A DNA stretch of 26,160 nucleotides from a virus. Below the pieces are notes generated by a model, which was given only the letters and a program-made list of their open reading frames with translations, ran no database searches and had not been told where the DNA came from. The DNA lies in the IMG/VR virus record IMGVR_UViG_3300042561_001717, positions 1-26,160 of that record; one strand, given 5' to 3'. How positions within the stretch are numbered: the first letter of the stretch is position 1; each line of letters begins with the position of its first letter. Shown piece by piece: positions 121 through 26,160 of this stretch. The position numbers and the translations under genes are program-made.

Positions 121-555
121 CTACTTATAGTCAACTTCTCGATAATCCAATTCGTCGATTTTGGCAGTCAATTCAGCAACTTGAGAGCCAAGTCGCTTGT
201 TAGCCTCAATTGCCTCACTTTTGACCTGAAAACCGGCTAAGGTGTGAAGGAATAAGCGAACGCCCAACTGCATTACTTTTAGGGCTAGTTCGTGATTGTC
301 TTTGATTAACCACTGACAGATTAAATTTTCTGGTATCAACGCAACACCTTGTAACCCGCCTGCTGTCTCGATTTGAGCCTGTTCAAGACCCTTTTCACGC
401 AAACCCATCATAGTCAAACGGCGAGAAATAGTTGAAGGTATTTTCCCTGACATCCGGGCATATCCACTAATTGAGGCAAAGCTCTCACCGGTCTCGGTAT
501 TAATAATTAATTCAATACCACCGTGATCAAAACGCTGTAAACTAGAATTAGTCAT
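121..555 (-). CDS. Antirepressor-like phage regulator, short paralogue
   Basis: This 144-residue protein is clearly paralogous to the 234-residue product of 10345-11049. Both start with LQRFDH-GIELII-T-TGESFAS, continue through GYARMSGK, and share QI-T-GGLQGV-LIPE, LICxWL, LGVRLFLHTLAGF and VKSEAI. The N-terminal part (residues 25-60) reads like a small DNA-binding or antirepressor domain, and the C-terminus is a short coiled coil (residues 112-137). It lacks the last 60-70 residues of the paralogue's coiled coil and ends at DYK next to the transposase-like gene, which suggests truncation. Transcription would start from the minus-strand promoter at 587-643, whose operator arrangement is shared with the paralogue. 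Function is inferred from phage context and architecture. No antirepressor family was confirmed. Confidence 0.55.
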   Translation of the reverse strand: MTNSSLQRFDHGGIELIINTETGESFASISGYARMSGKIPSTISRRLTMMGLREKGLEQAQIETAGGLQGVALIPENLICQWLIKDNHELALKVMQLGVRLFLHTLAGFQVKSEAIEANKRLGSQVAELTAKIDELDYREVDYK

Positions 556-2671: not shown

Positions 2672-3961
2672 ATGAAATCTCAAATTACACTCGCATACAT
2701 CCCCTTTGACACTGAGGACGGGGGAGTATTGTTCGAAGGGAAAGTGATCGCGGTAAGGGAAGGAGAGTGCTTCTGGTACAATGACGGGTTTGAAGACCGC
2801 CTCGTCCCTTTGCCCACTGCCAGTTGGGCAGAGATTCCTGTTACGCCAGAAATGGCTCAAACATACGGCGATTACGCCAGTTTGTATTTGCCAGGCGGGG
2901 AAATAACTACAGACGGAAATCTGTGGGCAGATGCTTGGGGAATCGATCTCATCGATTCCCCAACCTACTCAGTAGGTTTTAAAGACGATGAAATCAACCA
3001 GATAATCATTAATTATCTGGACTCTTTAGAAGCCTCTTTAGAGGCTTCTAGGAAGGCGAAAGAGGCTTGGATTACTGGCCAAGCCGAAAGAGAAAAAGCG
3101 GAAAAAAGAGCCGTAGAAGCGCGGGAAGAGGCGCGGGAAAAAGAATGGGGTAACTACCTGTCAATCAAAGACAGGCTAAAAAAATACGACCGCTATGAAA
3201 ATAGCGATTATTATGTCGTGACACACGGCATAGTAATCAATGAAAGAACCGAAAGGTTTTATTCCGAGGGGTCAGATACCCCATCATCTGACGGAATGGG
3301 ATCTCGATCCCATGGCGGTTATGTGACCGTTCGGGTCGTAACCTATCAGCTTCCCCACTGGGAAGCCAAACAATTAACCAACCCTCCAAAACCCAGATCG
3401 GAAAAAGACTGGGTGTTAAACCACAACTCTGGTTACTGGACTAGAAAAAAATGGGATATAGAAAATCCTAAAGTAGAAGCGGTTTCCGAACCCGAACCTG
3501 CTCCTATTTCAGCAAATCAAAAATTAATTGAAGATTTTGGGGCTAAATTCCCCCAACTTGTCGAAGAATCCCTGTCTCTAGGGATTCAAATAAGACTTAC
3601 AAGTGGCGAAGAAAGACGGGTAGTAGTCCGTAGCCGCGATTTAAGGAATGGTTACGAATCCTTTCCGAAGGATGCTACCGAACTGCATCAAGCAGTAATC
3701 GAAGCCATAGCCTTTAAGTCTCGCAAAAACGAGCTAGAAGCCTTGGAAAAGGCTAGAGAAGAGCAGATTACTGCTCAACAGAAGGAATCTCAACTTCCTT
3801 ATAAGACAGCCTGCGAAAAAGCAGGGTACAAGGTGGAGTGGAACCAGGACTCCTATCTTGCCAAGGTCGGTAAAAGATGGACAGATTGCCGGACTGTCTG
3901 CCGGCAAAAAAACCTATCAATTGAGTTTAGCAAAAAGCCTAAACTCATTCTCAAAAAATAG
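2672..3961 (+). CDS. Hypothetical coiled-coil protein; hairpin-packed gene
   Basis: A 429-residue protein of unknown family, driven by class I module copy 1. Residues 1-100 look globular and acidic. Residues 108-165 form a charged helix (KAKEAW, EREKAEKRAVEAREEAREKEW) typical of a coiled coil. Residues 165-270 contain YYVVTHGIVINERTERFYSEG and aromatic repeats such as KDWVLNHNSGYW. The C-terminus is basic and ends KPKLILKK. The striking property is at DNA level: perfect short inverted repeats follow one another almost without interruption (see the repeat entry). No membrane segment or signal peptide is visible. The start is fixed by the promoter leader, and SD-like GAGAAG lies 10 nt upstream. 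Confidence 0.65.
   Translation: MKSQITLAYIPFDTEDGGVLFEGKVIAVREGECFWYNDGFEDRLVPLPTASWAEIPVTPEMAQTYGDYASLYLPGGEITTDGNLWADAWGIDLIDSPTYSVGFKDDEINQIIINYLDSLEASLEASRKAKEAWITGQAEREKAEKRAVEAREEAREKEWGNYLSIKDRLKKYDRYENSDYYVVTHGIVINERTERFYSEGSDTPSSDGMGSRSHGGYVTVRVVTYQLPHWEAKQLTNPPKPRSEKDWVLNHNSGYWTRKKWDIENPKVEAVSEPEPAPISANQKLIEDFGAKFPQLVEESLSLGIQIRLTSGEERRVVVRSRDLRNGYESFPKDATELHQAVIEAIAFKSRKNELEALEKAREEQITAQQKESQLPYKTACEKAGYKVEWNQDSYLAKVGKRWTDCRTVCRQKNLSIEFSKKPKLILKK
2937..3947 (+). repeat. Consecutive perfect hairpins inside a coding sequence
   Basis: Perfect stems read by eye, with arm length and loop: 2937-2961 (11 bp, 3 nt), 2962-2978 (8, 1), 2998-3020 (9, 5), 3027-3050 (10, 4), 3064-3085 (7, 8), 3157-3175 (6, 7), 3191-3206 (6, GAAA), 3271-3292 (7, 8), 3296-3313 (8, 2), 3349-3366 (7, 4), 3537-3556 (6, 8), 3566-3587 (8, 6), 3658-3673 (6, 4), 3739-3754 (6, GGAA), 3761-3776 (6, 4), 3782-3800 (6, 7), 3886-3907 (7, 8) and 3922-3947 (9, 8). 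The arms differ in sequence from stem to stem, so this is not one repeat that has spread. Confidence 0.85.
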
Positions 3962-3991
3962 TTATCAGTTATTAGTTATCAGTTATTAGTC
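3961..3991. repeat. Heptanucleotide tandem repeat (TTATCAG type)
   Basis: About four imperfect copies of GTTATCA/GTTATTA directly after the stop codon of the preceding gene. Confidence 0.75.
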
Positions 3992-4014
3992 AATAAACAT
4001 CAACCAAATAAAAA

Positions 4015-4551
4015 ATGAAACCTCTGTATAAATTAGGCAAATATCACAATCTAGACAAGCTAAACAAGATAGTAGAATCGATTTGCAGTTCTACTACCTT
4101 TTCTGCAAGAGCAAAACACAATTGGGTTAACAGTCCTTTAGAGTTGTTTGATCCTTATTCTCTATGGTGGACATTAGGGTTAGAATGGCACACTGACGAC
4201 ATTAATGAAGATAAAAAATATTCAATTATTTTAGTTGTTCAAAGTGACAACTATGAACTCTACTCTTCTACAGCAAACAATGATACTTTAGAAAAACTCT
4301 TGAAAAATTATACTCCCTTTAAAAGTATGGATGATCAAATAAACTTTTTATTAGTCCAAAGAAAAGATACTCAAAAATTAGTCTTAAAAGCAGGAGATAT
4401 TTTACTGCTGGACATATCCTGCTACCATAAGCTGGAAAACACAAAAAAAACAGAAGACCCTTTTATATTTATTAACTTAGATATTGACTTTATTCCAAGA
4501 GTCAAGGAAGCGGTCAAGGTTGTCAATTATTTTGTTTATGATTTTTTGTAA
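4015..4551 (+). CDS. Double-stranded beta-helix protein, 2OG-Fe(II) oxygenase-like
   Basis: A 178-residue protein. The visible signature is an iron-binding facial triad pattern. There is H59-x-D61 in LEWHTDD and a distal H138 in the strand LKAGDILLLDISCYHKLEN, followed by a final strand FIFINLDID. In 2-oxoglutarate/Fe(II) dioxygenases the order is HxD, a beta-rich core, GDxxxF, H and then a basic residue that binds 2-oxoglutarate. K144 or K145 could play that role, but the usual RxS is not clear. Such enzymes are frequent in cyanophages. The gene sits 15 bp upstream of a HigA-like antitoxin gene and may be co-transcribed with it. The codon use is AT-rich and it lacks the dense hairpins of its upstream neighbour. 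A cupin-like non-enzymatic protein is the alternative. Confidence 0.4.
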   Translation: MKPLYKLGKYHNLDKLNKIVESICSSTTFSARAKHNWVNSPLELFDPYSLWWTLGLEWHTDDINEDKKYSIILVVQSDNYELYSSTANNDTLEKLLKNYTPFKSMDDQINFLLVQRKDTQKLVLKAGDILLLDISCYHKLENTKKTEDPFIFINLDIDFIPRVKEAVKVVNYFVYDFL

Positions 4552-10344: not shown

Positions 10345-11049
10345 ATGGCTGATCTAATTTTACAACGTTTTGATCACGACGGCATCGAGCTAATTATCGA
10401 CACTCAGACCGGTGAAAGCTTTGCCTCAATCAAAGGATATGCTCGTATGTCTGGGAAAAGCTCCAACGCTATCACTATGCGGTTAAACCGGCTATCTAAA
10501 GAAGATAGCAAGGGGGTAACTTCTGAATCTCCAAATCGCCCTCAAATTCAAACAGGGAGCGGGTTACAAGGGGGTAACACAATGGGGTTAGGATTAGGAT
10601 TGCTAAAACAGGCTCAAATTCAAACAGAGGGCGGGTTGCAAGGGGTTTATCTAATCCCAGAAGACCTAATCTGTAAGTGGTTGCCAAAGGATAATCCTGA
10701 GTTAGCCTCTCAAGTGCTTAAGCTAGGAGTCCGATTATTCCTTCACACATTAGCTGGTTTTCGCGTCAAGAGCGAGGCAATTACAGAGGTAAGGCAACTT
10801 GAGAGCCAAATCGTCAAACTAAGCGAAGAGAAGCAAATACTAGAGGAGTTGATCAAAACTCAAAAGACTATGATCTCTGACTTTAGCAGTAAAAACTCGA
10901 TGCTTGACTATAAGCGGCTAGTGATCGAAGAATTACACGCTGAAAAAGAGCGCGATATAGCTAAATTTAACTTACTCGAAACCGAACGAGAAAAAGCACG
11001 GGGATGGCGAGGCGGTCGAATGCTTATGAGAAACGACAAAAAACGGTAA
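10345..11049 (+). CDS. Antirepressor-like phage regulator, long paralogue
   Basis: A 234-residue paralogue of the protein at 121-555. The N-terminal domain carries TGESFASIKGYARMSGKSSNAITMRLNRL. An insertion contains a tandem duplication: PQIQTGSGLQGG is repeated as AQIQTEGGLQGV about 26 residues later, and the short paralogue has only one copy. The conserved core LGVRLFLHTLAGF follows, and then an extended coiled coil (residues 145-215) rich in E, K, L and R with a basic tail (GGRMLMRNDKKR). Its operator-bearing promoter and terminator make it a monocistronic unit. A role as antirepressor or DNA-binding regulator is inferred from phage context, duplication and operator sharing. The start is supported by AGAGGC upstream. 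Confidence 0.55.
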   Translation: MADLILQRFDHDGIELIIDTQTGESFASIKGYARMSGKSSNAITMRLNRLSKEDSKGVTSESPNRPQIQTGSGLQGGNTMGLGLGLLKQAQIQTEGGLQGVYLIPEDLICKWLPKDNPELASQVLKLGVRLFLHTLAGFRVKSEAITEVRQLESQIVKLSEEKQILEELIKTQKTMISDFSSKNSMLDYKRLVIEELHAEKERDIAKFNLLETEREKARGWRGGRMLMRNDKKR

Positions 11050-16208: not shown

Positions 16209-16352
16209 ATGTCTAACGATAAACAACTAATCAAAACAACACAAATTCCTAAAATTAAAAAGGCTCAAATTTTCCGCGAAGAGATTGAGCAAATAACTCA
16301 ATCTTTAGATCAGAAAGTACAAACAGTACTAGACAAATATCCGATGCTGTAA
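16209..16352 (+). CDS. 47-residue early-type protein
   Basis: ATG 16209 begins MSNDKQLIKTTQIPKIKKAQ and the frame ends KYPML at TAA 16350-16352. A basic N-terminus is followed by an amphipathic helix (IFREEIEQITQSLDQKVQTVL). The gene is solo behind its own complete class I promoter module and has SD-like CGAGGT 9 nt upstream, which argues that it is real. Small phage proteins with their own promoters often inhibit a host enzyme, but no specific function is indicated. Confidence 0.6.
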   Translation: MSNDKQLIKTTQIPKIKKAQIFREEIEQITQSLDQKVQTVLDKYPML

Positions 16353-16510
16353 TCAGTTATCAGTTATCGGTTATCAGTTGTCATCCGTCAAAAAGTGTGT
16401 GATTACTTTATTGGCTTAATTTTCCGAGATTTTTGGCAGTTCTGCGATCAGTGTAACCATAGGTAAATCTACAAACTACAAAAAGATAATAAAAAAGTTT
16501 GACAAACTAC
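16353..16510. repeat. Intergenic gap with heptanucleotide repeats
   Basis: 16353-16382 holds four imperfect AGTTATC copies. The rest of the gap to the promoter at 16511 shows no coding frame or further structure that I can support. Confidence 0.65.
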
Positions 16511-17585: not shown

Positions 17586-17838
17586 ATGTCAATCACAGAG
17601 AATCTCTAAAAAAGGGTTCTCTGTGTCAGGAAAACAGCGTTATTGCTGTAAAGACTGCAATCATCATTTTACTGGCAATCCGGCAGGAAAACCTCCCCAC
17701 CCTGATTCAATGACTAACGCCGAAAGATGTCGTCGTTATCGGTTGAAAAAAAAACAAAAAAACACTAAAGGAGTTCACGATGACCGAAAACCTACCCAAT
17801 CAAGTCGTATTAGAAATGGTGAACTTACCAGCAAGTGA
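17566..17838 (+). CDS. InsA-like zinc-ribbon protein without transposase
   Basis: A 90-residue protein. Residues 3-38 (MQCPKCQSQRISKKGFSVSG, then KQRYCCKDCNHHF) have the C-x2-C ... C-x2-C zinc ribbon and the GxxxSGKQRYxCKxC pattern of the IS1 InsA N-terminus and of transposase-associated zinc ribbons. After the ribbon come MTNAERCRRYRLKKKQKN (residues 49-66), a basic helix, and a tail with no known match. No InsB or DDE domain follows, so it is not a functional IS1 transposase. It is probably a phage DNA-binding protein that has borrowed the ribbon. It overlaps the upstream gene by 20 bp and the next gene by 59 bp, forming a compact cluster. Confidence 0.6.
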   Translation: MTMQCPKCQSQRISKKGFSVSGKQRYCCKDCNHHFTGNPAGKPPHPDSMTNAERCRRYRLKKKQKNTKGVHDDRKPTQSSRIRNGELTSK

Positions 17839-18481
17839 ATTTCTCATAGGCTCTCCTGATAGTGATCCCGATGTTCAAAATCATCAAAAGCCTCAACACC
17901 AAGTTAAAGTCAACAGTTTTGCAATTGGCAAATATCCAGTGACTCAAGCACAATATGAAGCGGTGATGGGAATTAATCCTTCTTACTTTAAAAATAATCT
18001 TCAAAATCCAGTGGAACAAGTCAGTTATGACGACGCTATAGCCTTTTGTCAGAAATTGAGTCAGCTAACCGGGAAAAATTATCGTCTTCCTACAGAAGCG
18101 GAATGGGAATATGCTTGTCGTGCGGGGACAACTACTGACTATTATTTCGGAGATTATTTTGATGATTACTTAAAAGATTACGCTTGGTATTATGGAAATT
18201 CTCAGGATGAAACTCATCCTGTAGGACAGAAAAAGCCCAATGCTTGGGGGCTTTATGATATGAGTGGTAATGTTTGGGAGTGGTGTGCCAATACTTGGCA
18301 CGATAATTATGATGGTGCGCCGACGGATGGCAGTGCCTGGATAGAAAATGGGAATGATAATTTGCGGGGCGGTTCCTGGGGATGCAATCCTGATGACTGC
18401 CGTTCCGCGATTCGCTACTACTACGACCGCCGCGACATCCGCAGCCACTCTTTCGGTTTTCGGGTAGTCTGCGACAATTAG
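17780..18481 (+). CDS. FGE-sulfatase-fold variable protein (DGR target-type)
   Basis: A 233-residue protein with a formylglycine-generating-enzyme-type C-lectin-like domain over nearly its whole length. It has FLIGSPDSD near residue 21, a KYPVTQAQYEAVMG segment, YRLPTEAEWEYACRAGT, GLYDMSGNVWEW and the final GFRVVC. The catalytic cysteines of true FGE are not evident. FGE-fold proteins with a C-terminal variable region are the usual targets of cyanobacterial diversity-generating retroelements, and here residues 201-225 form such a block (see next entry). The product is likely a ligand- or receptor-binding protein. The start has AAAGGAG upstream at 17766-17772. No reverse transcriptase or template repeat lies in the window. 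Confidence 0.85.
   Translation: MTENLPNQVVLEMVNLPASEFLIGSPDSDPDVQNHQKPQHQVKVNSFAIGKYPVTQAQYEAVMGINPSYFKNNLQNPVEQVSYDDAIAFCQKLSQLTGKNYRLPTEAEWEYACRAGTTTDYYFGDYFDDYLKDYAWYYGNSQDETHPVGQKKPNAWGLYDMSGNVWEWCANTWHDNYDGAPTDGSAWIENGNDNLRGGSWGCNPDDCRSAIRYYYDRRDIRSHSFGFRVVCDN
18380..18454 (+). other. Predicted DGR variable region
   Basis: Residues 201-225 fit the target pattern RGGSW-variable-CRSA-x-R-variable-R-variable-GFRVV. Thirteen of the fourteen non-conserved codons end in C or T (for example TAC TAC TAC GAC, GAC ATC, AGC CAC TCT TTC) and encode C, N, D, I, Y, S, H and F. These are residues reachable from AAC or AAT by changing only the two adenines. Adenine-specific mutagenesis is the hallmark of DGR homing. 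The one exception is GGA at residue 201. The block is GC-richer than the rest of the gene. Confidence 0.75.
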
Positions 18482-18511
18482 TCAGTTATCAGTTATCAAT
18501 TATCAGTTGTT
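18481..18511. repeat. Heptanucleotide tandem repeat (TTATCAG type)
   Basis: Four imperfect AGTTATC units directly after the stop codon of the variable-protein gene. Confidence 0.7.
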
Positions 18512-18535
18512 AACCACAAATCAACAAAGGTAATT

Positions 18536-18921: not shown

Positions 18922-19320
18922 ATGATTAACTGGAATCTAGGAAAAGACTTAGCTACTGAAGCTTTTGGGGAAATGGTGTCCGAATTTGCCCAAGAGATTA
19001 ACTTTCAGATAGAAGATACTAAATGGAACTGGCCACGGGAAACCGTACGAAAAAATGGCAGTGTAGTCGGCTCACCTCGGGACATTGTAGATACAGGTGA
19101 GCTAAAAAATAGCCAATTTATTGAAGATGTATCGGATACTTATAAAGTAATCGGTTACACTGCTGATCATGCCGCTCTTGTCCATGAAGGGTATCAAATA
19201 GAGCGTAACGATGGGACGGTGACAGATGTTCCCGCCCGCCCATTTATCGACACGGCTATAGAAGACTATAATCCAATTGAGGCTTATAGTGAAATCTTAA
19301 AGGAAAAATTAAATGAGTGA
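18922..19320 (+). CDS. HK97 gp10-like head-tail/tail component
   Basis: A 132-residue protein. The diagnostic part is PRDIVDTGELKNSQF (residues 53-67), then VIGYTADHAALVHEGYQIER, then VPARPFIDTAIEDY (residues 103-116). HK97 gp10 and related neck/tail proteins share DTGxLRxS, AxxVxxG and RPFLxPA motifs at these places. They sit at the head-tail interface or tail terminator region and usually open the tail gene cluster. The start codon has no Shine-Dalgarno sequence, and the terminator-like hairpin abuts it. The next gene overlaps by 8 bp. The upstream head genes expected before it are missing. Confidence 0.75.
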   Translation: MINWNLGKDLATEAFGEMVSEFAQEINFQIEDTKWNWPRETVRKNGSVVGSPRDIVDTGELKNSQFIEDVSDTYKVIGYTADHAALVHEGYQIERNDGTVTDVPARPFIDTAIEDYNPIEAYSEILKEKLNE

Positions 19321-20557: not shown

Positions 20558-20837
20558 AACAGTTAAACTCCTTGTCGATGAAGACCAAGAGGTAATGTTA
20601 GTCAATTCTAGAATAATTAATAATTACCTCTGGTTTTCTTTCGGTACGTTTGATCGAGAAATAACTCAACAAGAAAAGATATTAATCGAACCACCAGACG
20701 GAACAAAAAACCAAGAAAGAATACAAGTATCTGTGATCCTTGATCCTCTGTGGCTCAATACTGAACAAAGTGCAAAAAGAAATCAAAAGGTAAAAATAAA
20801 TGGCGAAGTTAAGCGTATTAGGCAAATTGAAATTTAA
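20544..20837 (+). CDS. Small tail-operon protein, 97 residues
   Basis: A protein with beta-rich composition (IKTVKLLVDEDQEVMLVNS, IINNYLWFSFGTFDREITQQ) and a basic C-terminus (NGEVKRIRQIEI). It overlaps the tail tube by 14 bp and the chaperone by 38 bp. The tight packing between tail tube and chaperone implies a tail-related function, but no family is recognised. Confidence 0.5.
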   Translation: MISIKTVKLLVDEDQEVMLVNSRIINNYLWFSFGTFDREITQQEKILIEPPDGTKNQERIQVSVILDPLWLNTEQSAKRNQKVKINGEVKRIRQIEI

Positions 20838-21585
20838 TGAAACATTCTTTTTCCCTTTAAAAAAAGAGTGGCTTTATTACATCCAAGACAACGATACTTT
20901 ACTGGAAAAGATAGATACAATTGCTACAGAAGAAAATGGAGAGATTGGAATCAAGTTTTTAAAACGATACGGAATTAATCCAAAGGAAAATGAAACAGTC
21001 AAGGAATACTTAGAGGCACGGGAAAAAGCTGACAAAGCTTATCTTGAGAAAATTAAAGCTATCGGGCAAAAAACGGGACTATCCACTGCTGAAATTGAAG
21101 GAGTAGTAGTTAACGACGGTTCGATCCGAGAACGAATTGAACAGGTCATGGTTGATGCCCTTGACGGGGTAAAATCTGACAGCGTAGAACAAAAAGTAGA
21201 AACCGCCGCTATCGTGCAGCAATCAATTTTAAGCAACCGTAAAAAAACAAGAGAATTGACACGGGAATCTATAGAACTTGTAGAGCCTTATCTCGATGAA
21301 TTAAACGCTTTATTTAAGGATCGGGAAACAACTTATGAGACGTACAATAAAGCCTTGTTAGCTAAATTTCTAGGTAGTCCTCGACGGGTAGTTAAACTTA
21401 AAGATAAATCTTCTGTTGATTTCACCATACAAGACGTTAATGATATGTCTCAATTTATGGTAGTAAAACTCTATCAAGACTATCTCTGGCAAGACATAAC
21501 CCAGTGGCAAAACCCAGAAACTGAAAAACCAGAGCCTGAAAAATCAGAATCAGAGTCAACGGAGGACGACGAAAAAAACGAATAG
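20800..21585 (+). CDS. Tail assembly chaperone, short form (gpG-like)
   Basis: A 261-residue helical, acidic protein in the position of lambda gpG, between the tail tube and the tape measure. These proteins coat the tape measure and recruit tube subunits. It begins AKLSVLGKLKFNE and contains long helices (TVKEYLEAREKADKAYLEKI, REIRE/TRESIELVEPYLDEL). Near residues 214-236 is VDFTIQDVNDMSQFMVVKLY, and the tail is rich in Pro, Glu and Ser (ETEKPEPEKSESESTEDD). The zero frame ends with TAG two codons after the slippery heptamer. The frame overlaps the preceding gene by 38 bp. Confidence 0.75.
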   Translation: MAKLSVLGKLKFNETFFFPLKKEWLYYIQDNDTLLEKIDTIATEENGEIGIKFLKRYGINPKENETVKEYLEAREKADKAYLEKIKAIGQKTGLSTAEIEGVVVNDGSIRERIEQVMVDALDGVKSDSVEQKVETAAIVQQSILSNRKKTRELTRESIELVEPYLDELNALFKDRETTYETYNKALLAKFLGSPRRVVKLKDKSSVDFTIQDVNDMSQFMVVKLYQDYLWQDITQWQNPETEKPEPEKSESESTEDDEKNE

Positions 21586-22028
21586 ATGACGCAATTAATG
21601 CACGGTTAGAGGCAATTGCTAACCCCATTAATTGGGAAGAAATCTATTACAAATGGTGTGCATGGGGATTATCTATCGAGGAGTGGGAAGATTGGCCAGA
21701 CTGGTTAATCCTGAAAAAATATTCAGGGATTCAAAAAGTCAAATGTGAAGAAATTAATTCACTATCAGGTACGGTTAGTCAGATTGCTGCCATGGTTCAC
21801 GCCTACCTAGTAGCACAATCTAAAGAAGGTTCTAAGTCACAAAGTCTTCCTAGTGATTTTCTGCCTTACCAGTTTAAAGAAAATAAAAAATATTTTCTTG
21901 ATCAAGAAACCGCTCAAATTCTGTTAGAAGCTATGCAAGCTGGCCAAGTGCCAGTCTTCGCCACTCAGATAATAGTCGATTGCGGACTATACGACGAAAT
22001 AATTCAATTAGTAGGGGAGAAAAGCTAA
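20800..22028 (+). CDS. Tail assembly chaperone, frameshift form (gpGT-like)
   Basis: A -1 shift at A AAA AAC (21573-21579) joins the 260-codon chaperone to a 149-codon extension that is open without a start codon of its own. The extension begins RIDDAINARLEAIANPINWE, continues WGLSIEEWEDWPDW and IVDCGLYDEIIQLV, and ends at TAA 22026-22028. The total is about 409 residues. The WEEIYYKWCAWGLSIEEW segment is acidic and aromatic, as T-domains that contact the tape measure often are. The stop overlaps the tape-measure ATG (TAATG), as in lambda-type tail operons. Confidence 0.75.
21573..21579 (+). other. Programmed -1 frameshift heptamer
   Basis: Zero-frame codons GAA AAA AAC GAA TAG contain X XXY YYZ as A AAA AAC, a classical -1 slippery site. 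The -1 frame is open from there to 22028, and the zero frame ends 6 nt later. A downstream stimulatory structure was not identified. Confidence 0.8.
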
Positions 22029-25000
22029 TGTCTTTATCACTTGGTACTTTAGAAATCGGTCTAGGGCTAAATACAGCCCAATATGATAGCGGCATCAAAT
22101 CGGCTAAAGACCAGCTTTCTTCCTTAGAGCGTCGTGTTACTAAACTTGGCACGACTCCACTAAAAATTAAAGTTAGCGTCGATGACCGTCAGCTTTATGG
22201 GCTAAACAGTCATTTACTTTTAAAAAGAGTTGACCTCAAGAAAACAGTTGATTTTTATAAAGCAAATCCTATTAAAGTATTTGCTGAAGATGACGCATTA
22301 GTTTCTCTTAACCAAGAGTTGCGTGAATTAAAAAAAACATCACTAGAGATAAGAACACCTTCTAAAATTGTTGTTGAGCATCGGTTTTCTGGGTATCAAG
22401 ATCGGGTAGAGAAAGCGATCGAGCGTCTGTCTGTCACCGTTCGCAATTCTAATCCCCGTGAAAACATTTTTCAAAAAGCATTTAATCTCACCGTAGGCAA
22501 TGTAGTCGGGGGATTTTTTACGGGGGCGGGTCTTTATGGAGGTTTAAAAGCAGGCAAGGGAATCAACAAGACGATCGGAATTGATTTTGAGAGTCAAGGA
22601 GAAGCAATCGGTAAAACTGTTCGTCGCAATGTCAGACAGTTTAACAATCTTCTCGATACTGCTTTTCGAGATTTACTCGGTTTTCCCAAGGGATTAAAAA
22701 GCGCAAAACAGTTACTTCGTATCAATTACAGGACAATAACCGATACACTGTTTAATCCAGAAACATATCGGAAACTAGAGAATATTTTTGTTGAGTCGCA
22801 ACAATTTAGCCGCGCAAACGCCCAAAAACAACGCAAACGCTCAACAGAGCCAGAACCTGCTTATCCAATCGGGGATAAGTTGAGAGAAGCTTTTCCAAAA
22901 ATTGCAATGGTAGCCGAGGAGAATCTTGCGCGATCACTAGGAGCGGCCGCACGAGTTGCAGTACAACCGCTAAGAATTCGCAAGCGAATACAACTTTCAG
23001 AATCAGCAATGGCGGCTGAAGAAATAGCAAAAATCCTACAACTCTCGCAAAAAGAACAAGATTTTATTAAATCTAGAAAGTCCATTACTCTTGTAACGGG
23101 TGGTGTTCAACCGAGCGAATCCCGTCCAGGCAAGCCCGAAGTACAAAGCACCTACGATCTTGCCGCTCAAATACAGGGTGTTTTTCCAGAGACAGCCGTT
23201 CTTGCAGTCCCGAACGTCTTATCAAATAGCTTAGAGGAACTACGCAACAGCCCAAGTCAATTTATTCGAGAACAGTTACTGCCGATTATCGAAAAGAATA
23301 AAGAACTTCTGCAACAATTCATATCCGAGACAGACTATCAAGGAATACTATCGGGCTTCAAAACAGTGCAACCGATTGACCGGGTATTTCAGACTAATTT
23401 CGAGGGATTCGATAAAGATGCGATCACGCTTGCGGCAAAAGCGTTAAACGTCGCAATGGGAAACCCTGAAAAAGAAATTGCGTTAGTCGGGGGTTCTGGT
23501 GGTGGGTACGTCGTTGAAGAAGCGGTCGCTATCCTACAGCAATTAATCAAGATGTCACCCGCTCTTAGGGAGGTGTTAAAAAATGTCAAATATGGGCTAG
23601 GAATAGGCACTCCTAACGCAGGATTAACTTCTGTTGTGGATACGAAAAGTCCACTCAAGTATATTGCCGCAATGGGCAATTATGATAAAGTCGGGATCAC
23701 GATGTTCGGAAAGTCCTTTATTCCTGATATAGCCAGCAAAGACCCTGAAAAGAAAAAAAAGGCCGAAGATATTTACGAAACCGCTGATGTTGCTTTACCT
23801 TCTCGCATTTTCTTTCCATCAAAACAGCAATTAACCCTTGACAAAATAGGAGAAGATCACAAGATTGGACTATATGTTGCCAACCTTGCCACATCTTCAA
23901 AGCAATTTAACAAAAGGCTTAAAGAGTCACTTAAATACTTTTATACTCCAATTGTTAAACGAATTACAGAACTAAAAAAATACAAAGAAAAATTAGAGCA
24001 GTCCGTGTCAGGTGTTGATCAGTCAAAGTTGTCGGCTGACGATACCAAAAAATTAGATGAACTACTTGCGTTGATCTCGGAAATCGATCAAGAAATAGCC
24101 GATCGGACAGAGTTCTTAAAAGCGATTCCAGTTCTCGGCAATCCAAGCAAGACAGCCGGGGCGGAGCAAAAAGAACTACAAGGGACAATTTCTGCCTACC
24201 AAAACACTCTCGCAGAAATTCTTAACGCGACAAATGTTTCCTTTTCGTACCTTGACCCGTTATTATCAAATTTAGAAGAACTTGAGAGGCTTGTCAATTC
24301 AGGAACCGATACTATCGATCTTAAGCCAAGCAATTTCGGATCGCTTTTACGGTTTTGGATGGAGACACGGAAAAATATTTTCCGTATGATGGGGGATAAA
24401 TTTGAAGCAGAATGGACTAATTTTATTAATGCTATTGACAATCTAGTAGAGGCGGGATACGAGAAACAGTTTAGGGCAAAACCTTATCATCATGTTACAG
24501 AGGCAGACAATGCTCTCCCAAACTCAGCAACATATGGGGAGACGTTTTCTCGCAGAGAAGATGCACCTAGCGATATTCGCAAAGACGTAATTCCTCGGTT
24601 TGGAGATATTCTTTATAAACTTTCACAAACAACCAATCAAAATGCTTTAGGATTACCGCTAGTTAAGGATCAGTCTCTTCCTGATTTATTAAAGTGGGTC
24701 AATAAAATGCCCACGAATACGGAAGCAGATAAAGCGGCCAAAAAAGTTATCGAGGCTCTAATTGAGATACGTCGGAAAGAAGCTAGATTTTATCAAGATT
24801 TTTTAAGGCGTGTTTCCGAATTGCAAAAAAGAATTGCGGGGGGAGACACGGGAGCGCAGTCAGAATACATTCAACTCTTAAAAACCAGCCCATTTTCTCG
24901 TATTCGCGAAATGATAGACGGGGCTGGCAAATACATTGACGTAAACGCACCGGTTCCGACTTTTATAGGGAAAAACAGGGTAATTAAAGAAATCGCCACA

Positions 25001-26160
25001 ATGGACGAGAGCGTAGAAAATATTACCGACTTTTTCTTCAACCTCTCGAATGCAATACTTGGATTTGAAGCGACGCTAAGAACAAACACGGGATTGATCG
25101 AGACCGCATTAGAAAATGTATCGCAATCATTAACATCTGCGTCGCAAAACGTTAAGTCAATTCAGTACCAGCCGTTTGATTTGATTAATGTTAATCAGGC
25201 ATTACAGAAGTCCCAAAAAATACTTCCCGAAAATCTCGACGTACTTAAAGCAGAAAAAATAGGACAGGGCTTTACGGGAGCCGTGTATCGACTTGGCGAT
25301 CTAGCGATTAAAACCCCCATCACCGAACTGAATCAAGGAAAGCTCGGAACTCCGAAAGAGTTCCAAGCGCAGTTAGCGATGGCGAAACAGGGACTTGCGC
25401 CGCGTCCGATTACCACAAGAAAAGGTGAGTATTTCATTCAGGAATATATTAAAGCAGTTGGTTCTTTAAACGATGTTTTACGAAAAGCCGATTTAAGTAC
25501 CCAAGAGGGTATTAAAGCTTTCACGGATTATATAAAACGGTATGCAGCGCTACTCAAGAATATACACGAAGCGGGTTATGCTCACTTCGATCTAAATACA
25601 GAAAATGTCTTAATTACTCCTAAAAATGAACTAAAAGCAATAGATTTTGCTAATGCAACAAAGCTATCAAAAGATGACGCAGAACGTCAATCACAAATAA
25701 ATAGAGATATTCAATGGGCAAAAGGGCGAAGCACCAGAGGATACGACAAGGAAACCGTCGAGATATTTCAAAAAGCTTTTGATGAGGGATATGGCGACAC
25801 TTCATTAACGGTTAACGACCCACGTTTTTTGCAGAGAGTCCGACAAAATCCCCGTATTGACATTGGGTCGGGCGTTGTTAATCGTCCAAGTAGAAGTGGC
25901 AGATCTAGTGAAAACTTCCCAAGAACAGAAGTTGCTAAACAGATAGACAAAAAAGAACCTACTGAAAAATCATTAACAGAAAGAATTAATGATGTGTTGT
26001 CGGGTAAACCTATAGCCGGTCATAAATTAAAAGATGTAGCTGATAAACAAAAAGATTTAACAAAAAAAGAAAGCTCAATAGAAAAAACTATTCACAGTGC
26101 CACAAAAGAAATAATTTCTAGTTTATCCCGAATAGAAAAAGCCATTCTAGCCAAATATGC
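22028..26160 (+). CDS. Tape-measure protein with enzyme-like inserts (partial)
   Basis: Open from ATG 22028 to the window edge (1377 codons, no stop). The N-terminus SLSLGTLEIGLGLNTAQYDS followed by GIKSAKDQLSSLERRV is the start of many siphovirus tape measures, and the gene follows the chaperone with a TAATG overlap. A glycine/hydrophobic stretch (residues 157-175) could insert in a membrane. Two segments are foreign to tape measures: an alpha/beta-hydrolase-like module (about residues 350-617) and a kinase-like module (about 1070-1235). Long coiled coils lie between and after them (residues 640-700, 900-1010). The tape measure occupies the tail lumen and is ejected into the cell, so such domains could be delivered to the host. 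Confidence 0.8.
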   Translation, partial: MSLSLGTLEIGLGLNTAQYDSGIKSAKDQLSSLERRVTKLGTTPLKIKVSVDDRQLYGLNSHLLLKRVDLKKTVDFYKANPIKVFAEDDALVSLNQELRELKKTSLEIRTPSKIVVEHRFSGYQDRVEKAIERLSVTVRNSNPRENIFQKAFNLTVGNVVGGFFTGAGLYGGLKAGKGINKTIGIDFESQGEAIGKTVRRNVRQFNNLLDTAFRDLLGFPKGLKSAKQLLRINYRTITDTLFNPETYRKLENIFVESQQFSRANAQKQRKRSTEPEPAYPIGDKLREAFPKIAMVAEENLARSLGAAARVAVQPLRIRKRIQLSESAMAAEEIAKILQLSQKEQDFIKSRKSITLVTGGVQPSESRPGKPEVQSTYDLAAQIQGVFPETAVLAVPNVLSNSLEELRNSPSQFIREQLLPIIEKNKELLQQFISETDYQGILSGFKTVQPIDRVFQTNFEGFDKDAITLAAKALNVAMGNPEKEIALVGGSGGGYVVEEAVAILQQLIKMSPALREVLKNVKYGLGIGTPNAGLTSVVDTKSPLKYIAAMGNYDKVGITMFGKSFIPDIASKDPEKKKKAEDIYETADVALPSRIFFPSKQQLTLDKIGEDHKIGLYVANLATSSKQFNKRLKESLKYFYTPIVKRITELKKYKEKLEQSVSGVDQSKLSADDTKKLDELLALISEIDQEIADRTEFLKAIPVLGNPSKTAGAEQKELQGTISAYQNTLAEILNATNVSFSYLDPLLSNLEELERLVNSGTDTIDLKPSNFGSLLRFWMETRKNIFRMMGDKFEAEWTNFINAIDNLVEAGYEKQFRAKPYHHVTEADNALPNSATYGETFSRREDAPSDIRKDVIPRFGDILYKLSQTTNQNALGLPLVKDQSLPDLLKWVNKMPTNTEADKAAKKVIEALIEIRRKEARFYQDFLRRVSELQKRIAGGDTGAQSEYIQLLKTSPFSRIREMIDGAGKYIDVNAPVPTFIGKNRVIKEIATMDESVENITDFFFNLSNAILGFEATLRTNTGLIETALENVSQSLTSASQNVKSIQYQPFDLINVNQALQKSQKILPENLDVLKAEKIGQGFTGAVYRLGDLAIKTPITELNQGKLGTPKEFQAQLAMAKQGLAPRPITTRKGEYFIQEYIKAVGSLNDVLRKADLSTQEGIKAFTDYIKRYAALLKNIHEAGYAHFDLNTENVLITPKNELKAIDFANATKLSKDDAERQSQINRDIQWAKGRSTRGYDKETVEIFQKAFDEGYGDTSLTVNDPRFLQRVRQNPRIDIGSGVVNRPSRSGRSSENFPRTEVAKQIDKKEPTEKSLTERINDVLSGKPIAGHKLKDVADKQKDLTKKESSIEKTIHSATKEIISSLSRIEKAILAKY
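23075..23878 (+). other. Alpha/beta-hydrolase-like module in the tape measure
   Basis: A hydrophobic strand ITLVTGG (residues 353-359) is followed by IALVGGSGGGYVVEEA with a G-x-S-x-G nucleophile elbow (S490). Next are YGLGIGTPNAGL (residues 523-533), resembling the lipase strand after the elbow, then GNYDKVG (D553) and GEDHKIGLYV (H611). The Ser-Asp-His order and spacing suit a catalytic triad. Confidence 0.5.
25235..25732 (+). other. Protein-kinase-like module in the tape measure
   Basis: Glycine loop IGQGFTGAVY (residues 1078-1087), VAIK-like LAIK (K1095), a possible helix-C Glu in KEFQAQL (E1111), hinge-like YFIQEYIKAV, catalytic loop HFDLNTEN (D1188, N1193) and metal site IDFA in place of DFG (D1206). 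All key residues are present, but the C-lobe is short. Confidence 0.65.

Follow-up and report, generated by a model that had tools for sequence, protein, structure and literature searches.

A protein-kinase-like domain encoded within the tape-measure gene of a likely cyanophage

Polyvalent phage proteins, which are thought to be injected with the DNA, contain short kinases, and ParB-like domains are reported from the same proteins (Iyer et al. 2017, PMC5512222). The domain described here resembles them in being a short kinase within a giant multidomain phage protein, and the corresponding gene of a related contig (L002) also has a weak ParB-like match. It differs in that the kinases of polyvalent proteins carry an insertion separating the catalytic His from the Asp, whereas here there is none (HFD in the kinase of our sequence, hereafter type 1, and HND in a second kinase, type 2). 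Polyvalent kinases are reported mainly from (pro)phages of Verrucomicrobia-Chlamydia and Bacteroidetes in PMC5512222, where T7 kinase is mentioned as a stand-alone phage kinase; the expression 'tape measure' has no occurrence in that paper. A second parallel is found in the CIS effectors Sle1 and Tme, which are tape-measure-like proteins with an exchangeable domain, loaded into the tube and ejected (PMC13277306, in part), as we infer for the protein studied here. Sle1 and Tme belong to CIS of Actinobacteria and have C-terminal functional domains, whereas the present case is a DNA phage with an N-terminal module, and the word 'kinase' has no occurrence in PMC13277306. Tape measures with peptidoglycan enzymes are also known, including the TM4 motif (cited in the available part of PMC13277306), and one relative of our sequence (L005) carries peptidase M23 and transglycosylase SLT domains. 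These enzymes act on peptidoglycan, whereas a kinase needs ATP and hence another compartment.

Among phage records, the best matches to the kinase were the 'ChoK-like' kinase of S-CBWM1 (E 4e-5) and the 933W-like Stk (E 1e-3), both annotated as kinase genes of their own, outside any tape measure. When either kinase was compared by tblastn with 50,697 phage records, 14, 0 and 37 records were returned, none of them annotated as a tape measure. MinS1 encodes a separate 95-aa 'kinase domain protein' (PMC8876498, in part), and the available portions of PMC9341999 and PMC7824862 hold no kinase in a tape measure. The same is true of the open-access literature among the matches listed. Kinases in injected phage proteins have already been proposed; within this scope, we found none described as part of a tape measure.

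The sequence analyzed (the window) is a complete IMG/VR record of 26,160 bases, which may itself be only part of a genome. The tape-measure gene (22028-26160, +) is open at the 3' end of the window, with 1,377 codons seen. The first-pass annotation had placed the kinase in this frame, which is right as to the frame, but the listed TTG start at 21980 lies upstream of the likely ATG at 22028, from which we number the residues. The gene is preceded by one for a tail assembly chaperone (20800-22026, +) in which a -1 frameshift is presumed: the first frame stops at 21585, and the second runs open across the slip site A AAA AAC (21573-21579) as far as 22026. A tail completion or Neck1-like protein (18922-19320, +; phrog_5, E 1.6e-9) is encoded further upstream. 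The first 133 residues (22028-22426, +) form a constant N-terminal part, common to otherwise different tape measures at up to 98.5% identity. Among the 50,697 phage records, the 1,377-aa query has a sole match, to the annotated tape measure of Cylindrospermopsis raciborskii virus RM-2018a, which aligns with residues 3-133 (30%, E 2e-6). On the basis of this one named relative, the host is likely to be a cyanobacterium. In bacterial genomes, pattern-based scans with the tape-measure part of the window confirmed no relative among 104 stretches.

Since the gene runs past the end of the window, the later domains of the protein are visible in relatives only. The type-1 kinase occurs in five other contigs (L002, L003, L004, L005 and L006), and three of them (L002, L005 and L006) have TMP_3 over the Pfam cut-off in the same frame; Pfam did not find it in L003 and L004, both of which end inside the frame. 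The L002 protein is identical to that of the window over the shared 1,376 residues and continues to TMP_3, while L005 is 98% identical in the shared part and has TMP_3, M23 and SLT. Because the N-terminus matches RM-2018a and the frame of the relatives contains TMP_3, M23 and SLT, we identify the gene as a tape measure. The earlier identification is thus upheld, also by the frameshifted chaperone upstream.

Another part of the L002 tape measure (10500-11000) matches phrog_21, a portal protein family (E 6.6e-47; positions 1010-1173 of 1362), as well as, weakly, ParB-like families of PHROGs (E 0.0036 and 0.01). Pfam returned nothing in this part, which we take as putatively ParB-like. Family scans of L002 12000-12545, L006 10650-11006 and L006 11340-12056 gave nothing usable. 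Measured from stop to stop, the open frames reach 5,680 aa in L002, 5,212 aa in L020 and 5,329 aa in L022, which is very long for tape measures. We also observed a Beta-lactamase2 domain (PF13354, E 4.1e-25 or better) late in the tape measures of L041, L028 and L039, presumably a serine enzyme acting on peptidoglycan.

The kinase-like domain lies at 25235-25732 (+), with core residues 1070-1235 defined by profile matches and by a set of motifs. All the residues that had been named as a kinase core are found at their places. The glycine loop GQGFTG starts at nucleotide 25262 (G1079, G1081, G1084). It is followed by K1095, the presumed beta-3 lysine (25310-25312, +), and by D1188, the presumed catalytic aspartate of HFDLNTEN (25589-25591, +), both invariant in all seven rows of alignment A2. 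H1186 and N1193 (nucleotide 25604) complete the HxDxxxxN motif with D1188. The presumed metal-binding aspartate D1206 (25643-25645, +) is assigned by its motif position, IDFA, where DFA replaces DFG; hhalign aligns it with the D of IDL in the type-2 kinase, and MAFFT misaligns it. E1111 is a candidate for the alpha-C glutamate that pairs with the lysine: it is aligned in both types.

Profile searches agree with the motifs. On 25100-25900 the Pfam model Pkinase scores 39.4 bits (cut-off 31.7, E 6e-10), so that the proposed search against kinase families bears out the kinase assignment, and RIO1 (32.6, cut-off 22), PK_Tyr_Ser-Thr (31.7, cut-off 23.1) and Kdo (23.3, cut-off 21.3) pass as well. 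When the whole 1,377-aa frame is searched, Pkinase (36.1 bits) and PK_Tyr_Ser-Thr (27.7 bits) both pass, RIO1 is not listed and Kdo falls just under its cut-off (20 against 21.3). Four further Pfam models, ABC1, OspG, choline kinase and APH, remain under their cut-offs. PHROGs returned serine-threonine kinase and other kinase families. In NCBIfam, Kdo kinase ranks first with E 1.2e-8, although its 34 bits fall far short of the cut-off of 142, and Bud32 (E 1.6e-5) is likewise far below its curated cut-off. Searches of PDB by sequence gave many protein kinases, with a best E of 2.1e-5 for the single protein and 1.2e-5 for the profile, and the best of them are tyrosine and Ser/Thr protein kinases. 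Together, the sequence data confirm that 25235-25732 encodes a protein-kinase-like domain in a genuine tape-measure gene.

As regards the loss of the C-terminal subdomain, a feature of the polyvalent kinases, the match to Pkinase ends near residue 1218, and those to RIO1 and PK_Tyr_Ser-Thr near 1230, 12 to 24 residues past D1206. The resemblance to atypical, RIO/APH-like kinases that the first-pass annotation had seen stands for the apparently short C-lobe and for the kinship with RIO and Kdo in Pfam, with Bud32 below its cut-offs, but is weak for APH (PF01636 13.5, cut-off 23.2). This resemblance bears on the substrate. The domain could be an injected small-molecule or glycolipid kinase, Kdo-, APH- or Bud32-like, acting on a metabolite, a nucleotide signal or an envelope lipid. 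Such an enzyme would be consistent with the RIO1 and Kdo matches above the Pfam cut-offs on 25100-25900, the first place of Kdo kinase in NCBIfam despite its low score, the lead of Bud32 for type 2, the short C-lobe and the predicted lipase-like fold of the adjoining hydrolase. We consider it rather unlikely, given that Pkinase is the best Pfam model, that the best PDB sequence matches are protein kinases and that a substrate in the envelope would be without ATP.

AlphaFold2, run on the kinase with a three-row alignment, gave a model with pLDDT 42. Foldseek with this model had no match in PDB at E<=0.001 (best E 1.2) and no protein kinase among the best 50 of 89 matches up to E 10. We treat this low-confidence model and its Foldseek list as no result, and not as evidence against a kinase fold. 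Because the three-row structure prediction failed, the kinase fold is a prediction from sequence only, and a bilobal pocket holding K1095, D1188 and D1206 is putative.

The fact that the window ends inside the gene could raise the suspicion of an assembly join, or of a chance match to the motifs. The join was rejected: the domain is found in the five other contigs, one of which is 81.7% identical over the shared 1,376 residues. The ordered motif set occurred in 0 of 20,000 shuffles of the same protein, and we regard either explanation as already refuted and its probability as negligible. A scan of bacterial genomes for the kinase returned one weak partial match among 327 (L059, a Bacteroidetes MAG, 29%), and the plasmids scanned returned none.

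We compared the kinase of the window with that of L006 over 208 codons and obtained a dN of 0.068 and a dS of 0.586, for a ratio of 0.116. In the same pair dN/dS is 0.065 for the hydrolase and 0.71 for the adjacent linker (1269-1376), while dS is saturated in residues 1-133. The comparison with L003 gives a kinase dN/dS of 0.2, on only 10 changes. The low ratio suggests that the kinase is under selection at the protein level. It also bears on the possibility that a catalytically dead kinase fold serves as a spacer, a membrane-channel part or a binding part of the tape measure. Tape measures tolerate insertions, the module is dispensable and DFA stands in place of DFG, all of which would suit a dead fold. 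Against it, the catalytic positions are retained in both kinase types, even in the diverged type 2, and dN/dS is 0.116, so that we judge a dead fold to be quite improbable. The glycine loop, Lys, HxDxxxxN and the metal-binding Asp are also retained in L003 and L006.

To describe the boundaries of the kinase, we aligned the window with five other tape measures (L006, L010, L012, L014 and L026). The module, with an approximate extent of 25190-25810 (+), is present in L006 and absent from the other four, in which 152 to 154 of 196 columns are gaps and the remainder aligns unconvincingly. Upstream, all four kinase-less tape measures align with the window (L010, for example, at 36% over 301-640 and 28% over 641-1030). 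Downstream, from about residue 1300, the identical positions are 56 of 76 in L010, 56 of 71 in L012 and 55 of 71 in L014, while the alignment of L026 is unconvincing (18 of 76). The expected insertion with clean boundaries is therefore seen in part: the module is insertion-like, with both flanks aligning in three tape measures, but its boundaries are approximate.

A scan with the N-terminal part extended this comparison to 38 contigs, five with type 1, 10 with type 2 (one copy cut by the contig end), 18 with neither and five too short to judge. These counts are not independent, because sequences from a single lake or time point may stem from one and the same phage, as the identity of the window and L002 over 1,376 residues and the strong likeness of L010, L012 and L014 suggest. 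The kinase appears to be dispensable, since neither type is seen in 18 of the 33 relatives that extend far enough for a judgment. Absence was judged by two kinase profiles, a motif pattern and Pkinase, and a further diverged kinase could be hidden, because Pkinase missed six of the 11 type-2 records searched.

Type 2 is a strongly diverged kinase in a similar place of the tape measure. At E<=1e-5, residues 1-133 are the sole part of the window protein matched by the tape measures that carry it, with an identity of 97-98.5%. Two more contigs have it, namely L055, which begins inside the kinase, and L057 (41%), whose N-terminus is related at 31%. Aligned by hhalign, the two types match with an E of 6.6e-6 and a probability of 85%, from shallow alignments, and the profile alignment spans the glycine loop, Lys, HxDLxxxN and Asp. 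On its own, type 2 remains under the Pfam cut-offs (Kinase-like 21.6/25, RIO1 19/22, APH 19.1/23.2), and in NCBIfam Bud32 leads with E 5.8e-8, far below the cut-off of the model. As judged from these sequences, the module is shown to be conserved under selection and to be present or absent between related tape measures.

Upstream of the kinase, residues 320-645 (22985-23962, +) form a probable cutinase-fold serine-hydrolase-like domain with the nucleophile elbow GGSGG. This agrees with the pattern GxSxG, and GxSGGG is invariant in the seven rows of alignment A3. D234, D248 and H292, invariant in A3 and numbered as in that alignment, are candidates for the catalytic Asp and His and lie mostly in low-confidence parts of the model. 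AlphaFold2 gave pLDDT 52 overall, with blocks of 67-79 around the elbow. Foldseek with this model had no PDB match at E<=0.001, and cutinases made up 28 of the best 50 rows, many being variants of one protein. Applied to the same candidates, VIA-align gave a Z of 11.3 with a cutinase (138 aligned, rmsd 3.1) and of 10.7 with lysin B of phage D29, both values being obtained with the low-confidence, pLDDT-52 model. Pfam has no hydrolase match in the window's own stretch; among relatives it weakly matches a secretory lipase in L012 and a cutinase in L041, each below the cut-off. No match was found in the phage records, and none in PDB by sequence was convincing: the best of them, to a Cap repeat chain with E 8.9e-6, falls outside the catalytic portion and has no stretch passing. 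Taken together, the predicted structure makes a cutinase fold probable, a likely fold that the module would share with cutinases and with mycobacteriophage lysin B. Lysin B is a separate lysis enzyme, whereas the hydrolase here is built into the tape measure. By eye, SxSLGG motifs can be seen upstream of the kinase in L015 and L057.

With moderate confidence we propose that a compact kinase-like enzyme, carried as an exchangeable head-proximal module behind the probable hydrolase, leaves the tail as part of the tape measure and, once in the cytosol, phosphorylates a target of the host. The protein would lie packed inside the tail lumen and leave it tip first. In phage 80alpha the tape measure is attached by its N-termini to the tail completion protein, at the neck, and by its C-termini to the baseplate, and it probably exits together with the DNA as a pilot (PMC11661146, in part). 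By analogy with this orientation, the C-terminal peptidoglycan enzymes M23 and SLT would be the first to leave and to act, and the hydrolase and kinase of the N-terminal part would come out last, next to the DNA. As a folded kinase would hardly fit the tail lumen, it would have to be stored there unfolded and to fold after ejection, and the idea of domains adapting to the lumen and folding after ejection exists for CIS effectors (PMC13277306, in part). The kinase would then reach the cytosol of the infected cell, the compartment with ATP, and phosphorylate a host target, most likely a protein, favoring the start of infection. In doing so it would act as an early injected effector, comparable with T4 Alt, T7 kinase and the polyvalent proteins.

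Against delivery into the cytosol, many tape measures stay in the envelope. The tail lumen and the periplasm are without ATP. Because it needs ATP, the kinase could act only in the infected cytosol or in the producing cell before assembly. In the latter case it would be active before or during tail assembly, with tail proteins, the chaperone or proteins of the host as its substrates late in infection, and would afterwards be inert cargo. The tape measure is made in a cytosol that contains ATP, where the domain can fold, and its gene sits among tail genes. However, a stand-alone late kinase would suffice without lengthening the tape measure, and the domain is missing from related tape measures; we hold activity in the producing cell to be unlikely and favor the cytosol of the infected cell after ejection.

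Should the kinase be ejected and active, the tape measure of an ordinary tailed phage would be a delivery vehicle for host-modifying enzymes. The fate of its N-terminal part would also become directly testable, because phosphorylation would mark the compartment reached. More tentatively, the tape measure may be a polymorphic effector carrier composed of a constant neck anchor, an exchangeable cassette of hydrolase and mini-kinase, the tape, M23 and a transglycosylase, where the lumen would put the enzyme pair into the host with the DNA. The variants of the cassette would be the two strongly diverged kinases, or a hydrolase without kinase. The kinase is in addition a candidate for a module that tape measures have gained or lost; in a broad survey, mosaic signals were seen in this class, but no genuine recent case could be confirmed (PMC10684548, in part).

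Other features of the window lie outside the tape-measure gene. At 17780-18481 it encodes a protein resembling formylglycine-sulfatase and C-type lectins (NCBIfam PvdO, E 2.5e-40, 138 bits, far below the cut-off of 500). It ends in RGGSW...GFR, which we take to be in the style of the variable proteins of diversity-generating retroelements; no repeat of at least 30 nt involving this gene is listed within the window. A 113-nt repeat is present in six copies (2573, 11557, 12331, 13436, 15279 and 16111), before or between genes, five of which are 73-84% identical to the reference copy, and is a candidate for a repeated promoter or early-gene element. Repeats of the AGTTATCAGTTAT type, partly in tandem, occur between genes at 2131-2188, 3946-4017, 16348-16391 and 18484-18527. 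Finally, 121-555 (-) and 10345-11049 (+) are related genes in opposite orientation, with inverted repeats I1 (74%) and I2 (77%).
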